Source of the DNA: Herpetosiphon giganteus
GTDB taxonomy: Bacteria > Chloroflexota > Chloroflexia > Chloroflexales > Herpetosiphonaceae
NCBI RefSeq assembly: GCF_016907925.1
Contig: NZ_JAFBCZ010000003.1
Coordinates: 124,001-188,000, forward strand
Reading direction: 5' to 3'
Length of the DNA stretch: 64,000 nucleotides
Shown here one piece after another: positions 27,462-36,465 of the stretch (position 1 is its first letter; the number at the start of each line of letters is the position of its first letter). Both the position numbers and the translations under genes were made by a program. The notes under the pieces were generated by a model. The model made no database searches, was not told the DNA's origin, and was given only the letters and a program-made list of their open reading frames with translations.

Positions 27462-27519
27462 TTTTGAACATTTCAGGGCAACCGAGAGTCAACAGCAAAT
27501 ATGTGAGTATCTACACCAC

Positions 27520-27552
27520 TTCAGAGTCGCAACTGCGGCTCTGAGGTTTTTT
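27520..27552 (+). terminator. Terminator before tRNA-Leu
   Basis: Stem TCAGAGTCGC (27521-27530) and GCGGCTCTGA (27535-27544), loop AACT, then GG and a T6 run. It closes the LexA-promoter gene. Confidence 0.85.
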
Positions 27553-27561
27553 AGCCCCAAC

Positions 27562-27590
27562 TTGCACAATCGTTGAAGATTTGCTATACT
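27562..27590 (+). promoter_or_regulatory. tRNA-Leu promoter
   Basis: TTGCAC (27562-27567), a 17-nt spacer, TATACT (27585-27590), with the mature tRNA beginning 32 nt downstream. Good sigma70-type spacing. Confidence 0.75.
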
Positions 27591-27621
27591 TGATGACGTT
27601 GCTTTAGCAGCAAATCCCTTA

Positions 27622-27708
27622 GCCGATGTGGCGGAATTGGCAGACGCGCTACGTTCAGGGCGTAGTTCTCGCAAGGGAGTGTGGGTTCGACTCCCACCCT
27701 CGGCACCA
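27622..27708 (+). tRNA. tRNA-Leu(CAG)
   Basis: An 87-nt class II tRNA including encoded CCA. The anticodon stem CTACG/CGTAG closes the loop TTCAGGG, giving anticodon CAG for leucine codon CUG. A long variable arm (GTTCTCGCAAGGGAGT region) and T arm GTGGG-TTCGACT-CCCAC are present. The acceptor stem GCCGATG/CCTCGGC has one T-C mismatch at the sixth pair. A terminator hairpin follows directly. Confidence 0.95.
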
Positions 27709-27711
27709 AAA

Positions 27712-27744
27712 AACAATCGCGAATATTCGCGGTTGTTTTGTTTT
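27712..27744 (+). terminator. tRNA-Leu terminator
   Basis: AACAATCGCGAA pairs with TTCGCGGTTGTT around a very short loop, then TTGTTTT. It lies 3 nt past the tRNA CCA end. Confidence 0.85.
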
Positions 27745-27817
27745 AAACACGCTACATCAGCATGAAACTGCTGTGATAAGATAATGCATATTATTTGTTT
27801 AATGCCGAGGTATAGGG

Positions 27818-28492
27818 ATGAAACCACTTAACCTCATTCTTTTTGGCCCCCCAGGTGCGGGGAAATCGACCCAAGCGGCCTATTTGGATAAATTAGCAGC
27901 AATCGATTCAATTTCGACTGGTCAACGTTTGCGCCAAACTGTCGAAACTGGCTCGGAATTAGGCCAAGAGGTTGCCCAAGTGATGGCCGCTGGCCGCTTG
28001 GTCGATGATACATTGATGAACAAGCTCTTGAATGAATGGCTGCTGACCATTCCCAGCGACGTTGGCGTGCTGCTCGATGGCTATCCGCGCACGTTGAGCC
28101 AAGCCCAAAGCCTTGATCAATTGATGCAAGCGATTAATCGCCCGCTTGAAGTGGTGATTGCGCTCACCCTCTCTGATGAAGAGGCAATTCGGCGCTTAAG
28201 TGGCCGCCGTATCTGCCGCATCAAGGGCCAGCCCGACCAAATTTTGCATATCAGCGACCAAGCAGCCTTAGACCAATGTCGCGCCAGCGGCGGCCAACTG
28301 ATCGAGCGCGATGATGATAAGCCAGAAACGATTAAACGCCGTTTAGCTGAATACAATGCCAAAACTGAGCCATTACTTCAATTCTACGGCGAACGCGATT
28401 TACTGATTTTGATCGATGCTGATGGCACACCAAATGAAGTTTCTGAGGCAATTGAGCAAGCCTTGCAACAACGCTTTAATGGCGCAGAGTAG
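27818..28492 (+). CDS. adk: Adenylate kinase
   Basis: 224 residues. A cytosolic enzyme interconverting AMP, ADP and ATP. The P-loop GPPGAGKST is at residues 10-18, followed by STGQRLRQ in the AMP-binding region and LLDGYPRTLSQAQSLD. The lid (about 125-160) begins RLSGRRICRIKGQP and lacks the four-cysteine zinc site of many Gram-positive forms. The middle of the lid is unusual (ILHISDQAALDQC). The final RRLAEYNAKTEPLLQFY is canonical. GAGG upstream supports ATG 27818. Confidence 0.95.
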   Translation: MKPLNLILFGPPGAGKSTQAAYLDKLAAIDSISTGQRLRQTVETGSELGQEVAQVMAAGRLVDDTLMNKLLNEWLLTIPSDVGVLLDGYPRTLSQAQSLDQLMQAINRPLEVVIALTLSDEEAIRRLSGRRICRIKGQPDQILHISDQAALDQCRASGGQLIERDDDKPETIKRRLAEYNAKTEPLLQFYGERDLLILIDADGTPNEVSEAIEQALQQRFNGAE

Positions 28493-28589: not shown

Positions 28590-28931
28590 ATGGCCAAGCC
28601 ATTAGCAGTTAGCGATGCCGAATTTGAATCAGCAGTGATTAATTCCGATATTCCCGTTTTGGTTGATTTCTGGGCACCATGGTGTGGGCCTTGCCGCTCA
28701 ATCGCCCCAGTGCTCGAAGAATTGGCCGATGAATACCAAGGTAAATTGTTAATTGCCAAGGTAAACACCGATGAAGATAGTGGCAACGCCATGAAATTTG
28801 GGGTTCAAGGGATTCCTACCTTGATCTTCTTCCAAGGTGGTCAAGAGGTCGATCGGATTGTTGGCGCAGGCCCCAAGAAGATCTACCAAGAACGGATCGA
28901 AGCGATTCTTAACCCAGCAACCGAAGCCTAA
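28590..28931 (+). CDS. trxA: Thioredoxin
   Basis: 113 residues from ATG 28590, with AGGAGG upstream; a longer frame from 28536 would add a non-thioredoxin extension. The cytosolic disulfide reductase motif WAPWCGPC holds C32 and C35. The cis-proline loop GIPTLIFF is present. The GrdB-family selenoprotein gene downstream has its own promoter but is an obvious candidate partner, since glycine-reductase-type B proteins take part in thioredoxin-dependent chemistry. Confidence 0.95.
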   Translation: MAKPLAVSDAEFESAVINSDIPVLVDFWAPWCGPCRSIAPVLEELADEYQGKLLIAKVNTDEDSGNAMKFGVQGIPTLIFFQGGQEVDRIVGAGPKKIYQERIEAILNPATEA

Positions 28932-28952
28932 TTAGGCTTGCTCGTAAGCGAA

Positions 28953-28987
28953 AACAGTACCAATCACAACGATTGGTGCTGTTTTTT
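28953..28987 (+). terminator. trxA terminator
   Basis: A 13-bp stem (28953-28965 with 28971-28983, one G-T pair), loop ACAAC, ending in TTTTTT. It separates trxA transcription from the next gene. Confidence 0.9.
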
Positions 28988-28988
28988 A

Positions 28989-29017
28989 TTGCCCAACAAT
29001 TTTTGCCATGCTACACT
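28989..29017 (+). promoter_or_regulatory. Promoter of the GrdB-family gene
   Basis: TTGCCC (28989-28994), 17 nt, TACACT (29012-29017), placed just after the trxA terminator and 43 nt before the ATG. Confidence 0.6.
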
Positions 29018-29059
29018 GCCAACAGCACGATTACGCATTTTGATGCTTGGAGTTTGCCA

Positions 29060-29896
29060 ATGCGGCGAGCATTCAATCAACTTGGGGCTTGGTTATATCG
29101 GGCGCTGCCTGGGCTTGGCCAGCGTTGGGCCAAACGCTTTGAGGTCCAAACAGTTGAGGCCCAGATTCCATGGACGGCGCTGCATGGAACGCTGGCGCAA
29201 CAACGAATTAGTTTAATTACCACTGGCGGCGTGCATCTGCGCAGTGATCCAGCGTTTGATATGCACGATCCGCACGGCGACCCCAGCTTTCGTTTAATTC
29301 CTGCCAATGCTAAGCCCAGCGATTTGATGATTACCCACGATTATTACGATCATCGTGATGCTGATCGTGATGTGAATATCGTGCTGCCAATCAGCCATTT
29401 TCAACAGCTGGCAGTGCAGGGCACAATTCAGCACCTTGGGCCATGCTATAGCTTTATGGGTCATATTACCGACGAGCACATCGACACGTTAATCAAGCAA
29501 ACCGCGCCAACCGTTGCCCGCAATTTACGCGCTGCTGGAATTACGGCGGCAGTGCTGACCCCTGCCTGAGGCATTTGCAACCAGTCCGTGGGACTGATCG
29601 CGCGGGTTTTAGAAGCAGCTGGAATTAGTACGGTCAGCTTTTTTCTGCTGGCTGAGATCGCCCAACAGCTTGGCGTACCCCGTGGCCTAAGCGTCAAGTT
29701 TCCCTTTGGCCATGTGTTAGGCGAGCCGCATAACGTTGTTCAGCAACAACTGTTGATTAAGCATGGTTTGGATCTCTTGCTGCAGGCCAGTCAAGCGGGC
29801 ACATTCGTGCAATTGCCCTATCGTTGGAAGCGCGAAGATTGGGCTGGTTTGGCCCAAGCGCAACAGGCTGATTTAGCGCAATCAGACGCACAATAA
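29060..29896 (+). CDS. GrdB-family selenoprotein (in-frame UGA read as selenocysteine)
   Basis: 278 residues when the UGA at 29567-29569 is read as Sec170; otherwise the frame looks like two ORFs. The sequence before it (LITTGGVHLRSDPAFD, THDYYDHRDADRDVNIVLP, YSFMGHI, ITAAVLTPA) and after it (GICNQSVGLIARVLEAAGI) form one uninterrupted protein. It belongs to the glycine/sarcosine/betaine reductase selenoprotein B-like family. The redox motif becomes U-G-I-C, where relatives, as I recall, have CxxC or UxxC. A small hairpin suited to be a bacterial SECIS follows the UGA. The frame ends at TAA 29894-29896. Start ATG 29060 has GGAG 7 nt upstream. Probably a thioredoxin-linked reductase of unknown substrate. 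Confidence 0.82.
29570..29596 (+). promoter_or_regulatory. Candidate bacterial SECIS element
   Basis: After the UGA, a 12-nt linker leads to stem CAGTCC (29582-29587), loop GTG and GGACTG (29591-29596). The loop begins 18 nt after UGA and starts with G, within the usual spacing for SelB-bound SECIS hairpins. The stem also lies within the coding frame, as expected for bacteria. Folding was done by eye. Confidence 0.6.
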
Positions 29897-34599: not shown

Positions 34600-35222
34600 G
34601 CAGGTGAAGGAGTCGCTACGATACGTTGCGAAAGTATTTCATTGATTATGGCGAAGCAGGAGTATCCTAAACCCATAAACAAACGAGGCCACGTGAAGCA
34701 CCATCACTGCTGGACACAATCGTCAGAGCAATTCTGCTCAACGAAGATGCGACGCTTCACAACCTAGTTTCAGCAAAGCCTTCACCGAAGGCAAGCAGCG
34801 TCCAAATATCGCCGTTGGTACGATTCAGCCAGTGGTTAATGCTAGGCCATTTCAACCACCTGAATCAACAACAAAGCTTGAGGGTTAGCCGTCGCAATGC
34901 CTGAACCGAGTATTCACCAGCGCTCAACTGGTTCACAAACCTGAAGCTGGGCTTACTCATTCGGTTAACTCAAGGACTTGATAGTTGCAGCGCAGTTGCT
35001 ACCAACCTTGGTAGCGTGTTGAGCTAGGATTCTCTGATTGCCGGTCTGCGGCCAAGGCCCTCCTTTCCACGATCGCTATCGTGGTGCTATTGGCCAATAT
35101 GGTGCCGGATGTTCTGGCCTTGATCGTTGACTGTTGCCGTGACTTGGCACCCCATGGATGGCGCATATTCCACCGCGCCGCCTGCTAAGCCAGCAACGGT
35201 GTAGACACCTCCTTCCGCCGCA
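34600..35222. other. Orphan intergenic region, candidate structured RNA or decayed element
   Basis: About 620 nt without a convincing gene. Hairpins include GCCTTC-acc-GAAGGC near 34785, GCTACCAA-cc-TTGGTAGC near 35000 and CCACGAT-cgct-ATCGTGG near 35070. A plus-strand terminator closes the region. A minus-strand open stretch of about 60 codons starts at the hairpin but has no start codon. I looked for RNase P RNA, tmRNA and SRP RNA signatures on both strands and saw none. Confidence 0.4.
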
Positions 35223-35261
35223 CCTTTGCCCAGCGTCCCCCTCGCTGGGCAAAGGATTTTT
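35223..35261 (+). terminator. Strong plus-strand terminator
   Basis: A perfect 13-bp stem CCTTTGCCCAGCG (35223-35235) with 35243-35255, a 7-nt loop and ATTTTT. It points rightward although the next gene is on the minus strand, implying a rightward transcript from 34600-35222 or read-through from mutY. Its T run touches the jetD stop codon. Confidence 0.85.
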
Positions 35262-36465
35262 AGCCGCCTAAAAGATCAAGTTGCTCTTGTTCAAGTTTTA
35301 TATTCTGGGTCAGCATTGCAGCAATCAAGGCTTGGCAATCGGCAAGCAATGGGTGTTGTTGGAGTTCAGTGAGGTTTTGGCGTTCTTTTTGATTCAACGC
35401 TTGTGTCGCATTGGGCATACGCTCAAAAATAGCTGGATCAGGTTGCCATAACTGAATTTGCGCAACGTGTTGGCGTAAATGAGCCAAGATGCGCAAGCCA
35501 CCTACGTCGTAATCCCCCCAATGATACCAACCGACGCTTGGCAATGCGGTTGCTAGCTTGACCAGAAATTGGCAAAGGCTTGGACTCGCAAAGCCACCTG
35601 TATAGATCAGCATCGCTTGGGGCTGACGAGCAAGCATACTATGGAAACTGGTTAAATTTTCGATTGTAATAATTTCGCTACAGCTTGAATCGAGCACCGT
35701 AGCCTGACGCAAAATTGAGCTAGGCAAACCCAAACTTGGCCGAAAATCACCCAATTCGAGGATTTTTTGATTCAAACTCAACCGGACATCACCAGCAATT
35801 AACACATATTCTGGTACTTTTTCAAGCCCAAATGCTTGTAACAAAGCGCGGTCGTCATCGCCAAACTGCTTGGCTTGGGGCGCAAATTGGCGCAAAACCC
35901 GCAAAACTGCGCTTTCTAGCTCGCTAAATCGTTTGCTCTGGCGAAGCCAACGAACACTAAATAAGCGTTCTAGCATTGGCGTTTCTAATTGAGTTAGCCC
36001 ATAAACTGCCCGTAGCAGATCGCGATTCCAAGTGAGGTCGGTTAAATCAAGTGGTTGGATTGAGCGTTGTTGAATTAATTGCTGTTCGAGCCACGCCAAC
36101 CACTCAGCAAACCACGCCTGTGGATGCTCATATTCGGCCAACAATGCGTGCAACGCCTGCTCTTGCTCAGCCAAAGGCTGGCGTTTCAATAAATGATAAA
36201 GCGGCACAGCCTCAAGCAAATCGACAGCTTCAAGCCAATTATGCTCTTCCCATTTGCGCCAATGGAGTTTAATGACCTGCGTTCGAGCCAATTCAAGCAA
36301 ACAACTATTGGTTTGTTGGCGTTCATCAACCTGCTTAGGGTCAAAATAACGCTGAAATTTAGCAGCTTTGATCTGAACGCGATTAACTCGCTGGCGATCG
36401 CGTTGCTCATGTTGGTCAAGCAATTGCTGCAAAATAGCGGTGCTAGTTTTGTTCAGATTCAGCAT
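35260..36465 (-). CDS. jetD: Wadjet nuclease subunit JetD
   Basis: 401 residues. The C-terminal half is a toprim-like domain related to the topoisomerase VI/Spo11 family, the DNA-cleaving part of Wadjet. Candidate metal ligands are Glu in IITIENLTSF (about 268) and the D-x-D in WGDYDVGGLRI (about 315). The N-terminal half is a helical arm region (DUF3322-like). Its start overlaps jetC by 23 nt. Last gene of jetABCD; it cuts circular DNA once the SMC complex has extruded it. Confidence 0.88.
   Translation of the reverse strand: MLNLNKTSTAILQQLLDQHEQRDRQRVNRVQIKAAKFQRYFDPKQVDERQQTNSCLLELARTQVIKLHWRKWEEHNWLEAVDLLEAVPLYHLLKRQPLAEQEQALHALLAEYEHPQAWFAEWLAWLEQQLIQQRSIQPLDLTDLTWNRDLLRAVYGLTQLETPMLERLFSVRWLRQSKRFSELESAVLRVLRQFAPQAKQFGDDDRALLQAFGLEKVPEYVLIAGDVRLSLNQKILELGDFRPSLGLPSSILRQATVLDSSCSEIITIENLTSFHSMLARQPQAMLIYTGGFASPSLCQFLVKLATALPSVGWYHWGDYDVGGLRILAHLRQHVAQIQLWQPDPAIFERMPNATQALNQKERQNLTELQQHPLLADCQALIAAMLTQNIKLEQEQLDLLGG

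Follow-up and report, generated by a model that had tools for sequence, protein, structure and literature searches.

The 64 000-nucleotide stretch of the Herpetosiphon giganteus genome analysed here (contig NZ_JAFBCZ010000003.1; hereafter the window, in whose numbering all positions are given) carries, downstream of a thioredoxin gene and its terminator, a reading frame that continues through an in-frame TGA and predicts a PrdB-like protein with selenocysteine (Sec) as the first residue of a UxxC motif (table 1). An earlier, sequence-only reading of the same DNA had drawn one frame across a UGA at codon 170, with the motif U-G-I-C and 108 codons between the TGA and the terminal TAA, and its coordinates proved to be exact; the residues around the Sec are AVLTPA-U-GICNQSVGLIAR. 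It had also stated that an ordinary gene finder would break the gene, and mechanical ORF calling does indeed split it, one piece ending at 29569 and another beginning at 29588.

Of the signals that precede the frame, the ribosome binding site is inferred from the sequence, and the possible -10 box was read by eye and is weak; of the three further Herpetosiphon loci, two keep it (L052 has TAAACT), and it is absent from the list returned by a consensus promoter scan. The strong terminator after the thioredoxin gene is kept in locus L051, and in H. geysericola its stem is strengthened by the change of a G-U to a G-C pair. The idea of a functional tie between the thioredoxin gene and the PrdB-like gene finds no support, since this terminator separates them and no neighbouring gene is conserved outside the genus Herpetosiphon. 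Further upstream, a tRNA-Leu(CAG) gene occupies positions 27622-27708 of the plus strand, beneath a minus-strand ORF listed at 27489-27827, which is therefore probably spurious.

Table 1. Features at and around the PrdB-like gene, with positions in the window.
Feature	Positions	Strand	Remarks
Thioredoxin gene (WCGPC), upstream neighbour	28590..28931	+	adjacency kept only within Herpetosiphon
Intrinsic terminator after thioredoxin gene	28950..28987	+	fold -21.3 kcal/mol, z -6.3
Possible -10 box TACACT	29013..29018	+	TTGCCC 17 nt upstream
Likely ribosome binding site GGAG	29049..29052	+	7 nt before ATG
Predicted CDS of PrdB-like selenoprotein	29060..29896	+	278 aa, Sec at residue 170; ATG 29060, TAA 29894-29896
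In-frame TGA, predicted to be read as selenocysteine (U170)	29567..29569	+	codon 170; paired Cys is C173 (UxxC)
SECIS-like hairpin CAGUCC-GUG-GGACUG	29582..29596	+	6-bp stem, GUG loop, begins 12 nt after UGA

Family assignment and predicted structure

The protein gives one match to the profile TIGR04483 (PrdB), which is continuous across the UGA and close to full length (E=4e-48; residues 35-258 aligned to profile positions 17-236 of 238) and which, together with the UxxC motif, places it in a PrdB-like homology family; its score of 163.9 bits falls below the 300 bits that TIGR04483 sets as the cut-off for equivalogs. The GrdB/GrdH/GrdF-type profiles reach 34-47 bits only, and the Pfam family GRDB (PF07355) 22.7 bits, barely above its cut-off of 22. 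The label 'GrdB-family' given by the sequence-only reading therefore needs adjusting: on these profile scores PrdB-like fits better (164 versus 34-47 bits) and the protein is better called by that name.

The readthrough product, modelled with Cys in place of Sec, is predicted with confidence as a single domain extending across the UGA position (pLDDT 92.7, pTM 0.91), in which residue 170 is found in the loop between a strand (163-167) and a helix (173-186). A sequence search of the PDB returned no relative, and Foldseek gave no match in the PDB at E <= 0.001. Middling matches to common alpha/beta folds, the best being microcystinase C (Z 8.6, rmsd 4.1, 161 aligned), were set aside as giving no functional indication.

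Membership of TIGR04483 and PF07355, along with the shared UxxC motif, could be taken as a sign of a true D-proline reductase, whose PrdAB complex would have this protein as its catalytic subunit PrdB, or of a glycine reductase in which it would have the same catalytic role. We consider this improbable, in the light of a score far under the equivalog cut-off, of the lack of a conserved partner gene nearby and of the results obtained for the partner proteins themselves. Indeed, GrdA had no match in this genome (G000) or in three other Herpetosiphon genomes, while the same search passed its cut-off in four other genomes; PrdA also had no match in these four Herpetosiphon genomes, in a search in which no genome exceeded the cut-off and which, therefore, had no strong positive control.

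The UGA codon and its decoding

The closest relatives lie within the genus, in H. llansteffanensis (94% identity), H. geysericola (93%) and H. aurantiacus (87%), and length, frame, TGA and TAA are kept in all three species. Against these species, dN/dS is 0.08-0.11 for the part upstream of the UGA and 0.05-0.08 for the part downstream; the low values after the codon argue that the downstream part is selected as protein, and purifying selection is, as judged from these ratios, acting on either side of the UGA. In a wider comparison of 76 aligned loci, in which the copy in the window is counted twice (as the window and as L019), the codon at the Sec position is TGA in 60 and a Cys codon (TGC or TGT) in 15, the single exception being L096, where the codon is unclear and the alignment poor. 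The aligned homologues come from many phyla, the TGA form occurring across phyla, and the earlier claim that the family includes natural Sec forms agrees with these counts and with what has long been known (PMC1088965, PMC2398784). Throughout an alignment of 55 sequences, position 170 is either Sec or Cys and C173 does not vary, and the same constancy is seen for G57, D74, R78, H93, Y96, D104, P110, M133, G134, E185, R208, G217 and G221.

The hairpin that follows the codon is maintained across this family of sequences. Standard pairs make up 94.3% of its pair cells (50 distinct sequences), and its covariation score is higher than in all 500 shuffles and in every slid register. Three of the pairs have changed on both sides (e.g. 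GC/AU/CG and UA/AU), a count that, taken alone, is not beyond the shuffles; cells with two-sided changes number 21 versus 4.1 in shuffles. The replacement of CAG..CTG by CAA..TTG, which is synonymous on both sides, is always concerted (25 and 5 sequences, 0 mixed), and perfect stems are observed in 38 of 56 sequences, as compared with a mean of 1.4 and a maximum of 7 in 2000 synonymous recodings. In the Cys forms (n=15) the hairpin is not kept, an average of 3.1 of the 6 stem pairs being found. The excess over synonymous recoding and the loss in the Cys forms set a signal at the nucleotide level apart from the constraint on the protein. All these counts come from related sequences and do not stand for independent events, but the changes fall in loci of different phyla. 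The fold predicted from the single sequence after the UGA has no exceptional stability (z -0.03 to -1.6) and, such folding being uninformative, the argument for a SECIS element rests on the comparison between sequences; an Rfam search of 2 kb matched no family. This comparison supports the assignment of the hairpin directly downstream of the UGA as a SECIS element, with SelB binding being putative.

The sequence-only reading had called for a search for selA, selB, selD and tRNA-Sec and had taken absence of selA/selB/selC as counting against it; all four were found in the same genome, the machinery being complete. The tRNA-Sec scores 60.9 bits, over the Rfam cut-off, and is called SeC(tca) by ARAGORN, and SelA, SelB (a 626-aa ORF) and SelD are matched with 532, 316 and 377 bits, respectively. 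Within the order, selA accompanies the TGA form in 23 of 23 genomes sampled, versus 7 of 15 that lack the PrdB-like gene (Fisher p=1.3e-4, uncorrected for relatedness). Elsewhere in the phylum, selA was found above the strict threshold in neither of two TGA-form genomes, G188 and G270, of which G188 is only 84% complete. Cys forms occur in large Chloroflexota genomes that bear selA (L023, L024, L026-L030, L033, L034, L045 and L047), which indicates that Sec and Cys replaced one another while the Sec machinery was retained.

As a separate observation, SelD has an in-frame TGA of its own (LASCAG-U-AAKMGAG; L017:1481-2526, corresponding to G000:C24, about 35068-36113) and is likely to be encoded by a selenoprotein gene itself, so that two or more selenoproteins are probably encoded in this genome.

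That a residue other than Sec, namely Trp, Cys or Arg, is inserted through near-cognate suppression or programmed readthrough would accord with the occurrence of Cys at the same site in 15 homologues, which shows that a standard residue is tolerated; nevertheless, a conserved and covarying hairpin at SECIS spacing, its loss from the Cys forms, and the occurrence of SelA, SelB, SelD and tRNA-Sec in the genome make such a reading very hard to uphold. Under the standard bacterial code TGA means stop, and decay of the frame beyond it is conceivable, but a truncated protein, or a pseudogene arising from a nonsense mutation or a sequencing error, is scarcely credible with the same TGA in four Herpetosiphon genomes and in 60 loci across phyla, with the low dN/dS after it, and with a hairpin that covaries in a genome endowed with the full Sec machinery. 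Insertion of Sec at the UGA, as predicted from the sequences, is supported by that machinery, by the covarying hairpin and by the alternation of TGA and Cys at one codon.

Proposed function and its implications

The locus very probably holds a single gene for a 278-residue PrdB-like selenoprotein, in which the UGA would be decoded as Sec and which would act as a stand-alone redox protein. In the proposed mechanism, the hairpin that closely follows the UGA would be bound by SelB carrying Sec-tRNA(UCA), and the ribosome would place selenocysteine at position 170, so that a helix would begin with the redox pair U170-x-x-C173. Analogy with PrdB and GrdB makes an attack of the selenolate on an electrophilic substrate probable; the Cys would resolve the product as a selenenylsulfide, and a dithiol donor such as thioredoxin may then re-reduce it. 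The substrate is probably neither D-proline nor glycine, because the protein appears to stand alone; a function as an independent redox selenoprotein seems most likely.

Judged from its genome sequence, Herpetosiphon has a full selenocysteine system and one or more genes that ordinary gene-finding programs would truncate. Annotation of selenoprotein genes is known to be poor, 195 of 298 known genes being correctly annotated in test genomes (PMC12013277). Furthermore, a very common family named after D-proline reductase is found here without recognizable partner proteins of that enzyme, so that its real reaction may be a different one. Whether PrdB-like selenoproteins that lack PrdA or GrdA form a separate enzyme class, misnamed proline reductase in the catalogues, is a matter on which our judgement is evenly divided; if they do, the Herpetosiphon gene would be an accessible member of the class in a culturable genus.

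Relation to known selenoproteins

The proteins B of glycine, betaine and sarcosine reductase (GrdB, GrdH and GrdF; PF07355) are homologous in their Sec-containing C-terminal half (profile positions about 220-410). Their models, however, have about 430 positions and the enzymes act with GrdE and GrdA, whereas the Herpetosiphon protein has 278 residues and no GrdA was found in the genome. PrdB of the D-proline reductase of Clostridium sticklandii and Clostridioides difficile is a homologous Sec subunit of about 26-30 kDa, from which the present case differs in that no PrdA proprotein (pyruvoyl subunit) was found in this genome and that the score lies under the equivalog cut-off.

A close parallel exists with the catalogued selenoproteins of the PrdB family. 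PrdB proteins with Sec in a UxxC motif have been on record since 2005 and are among the commonest bacterial selenoproteins (PMC1088965, PMC2398784): in the Sargasso Sea they ranked third among the families, with 42 genes (PMC1088965), and the GOS selenoproteome contains 235 PrdB family sequences (PMC2398784). A literature search, with candidate papers judged by title and abstract, found none describing a Herpetosiphon PrdB-like selenoprotein. The catalogued proteins and the one presented here share the family name, the UxxC motif with Sec in first position and the existence of both Sec and Cys forms, and differ in that the present gene comes from Herpetosiphon (Chloroflexota); it is, thus, a new member of an already known selenoprotein family, a sound but ordinary addition to the field.
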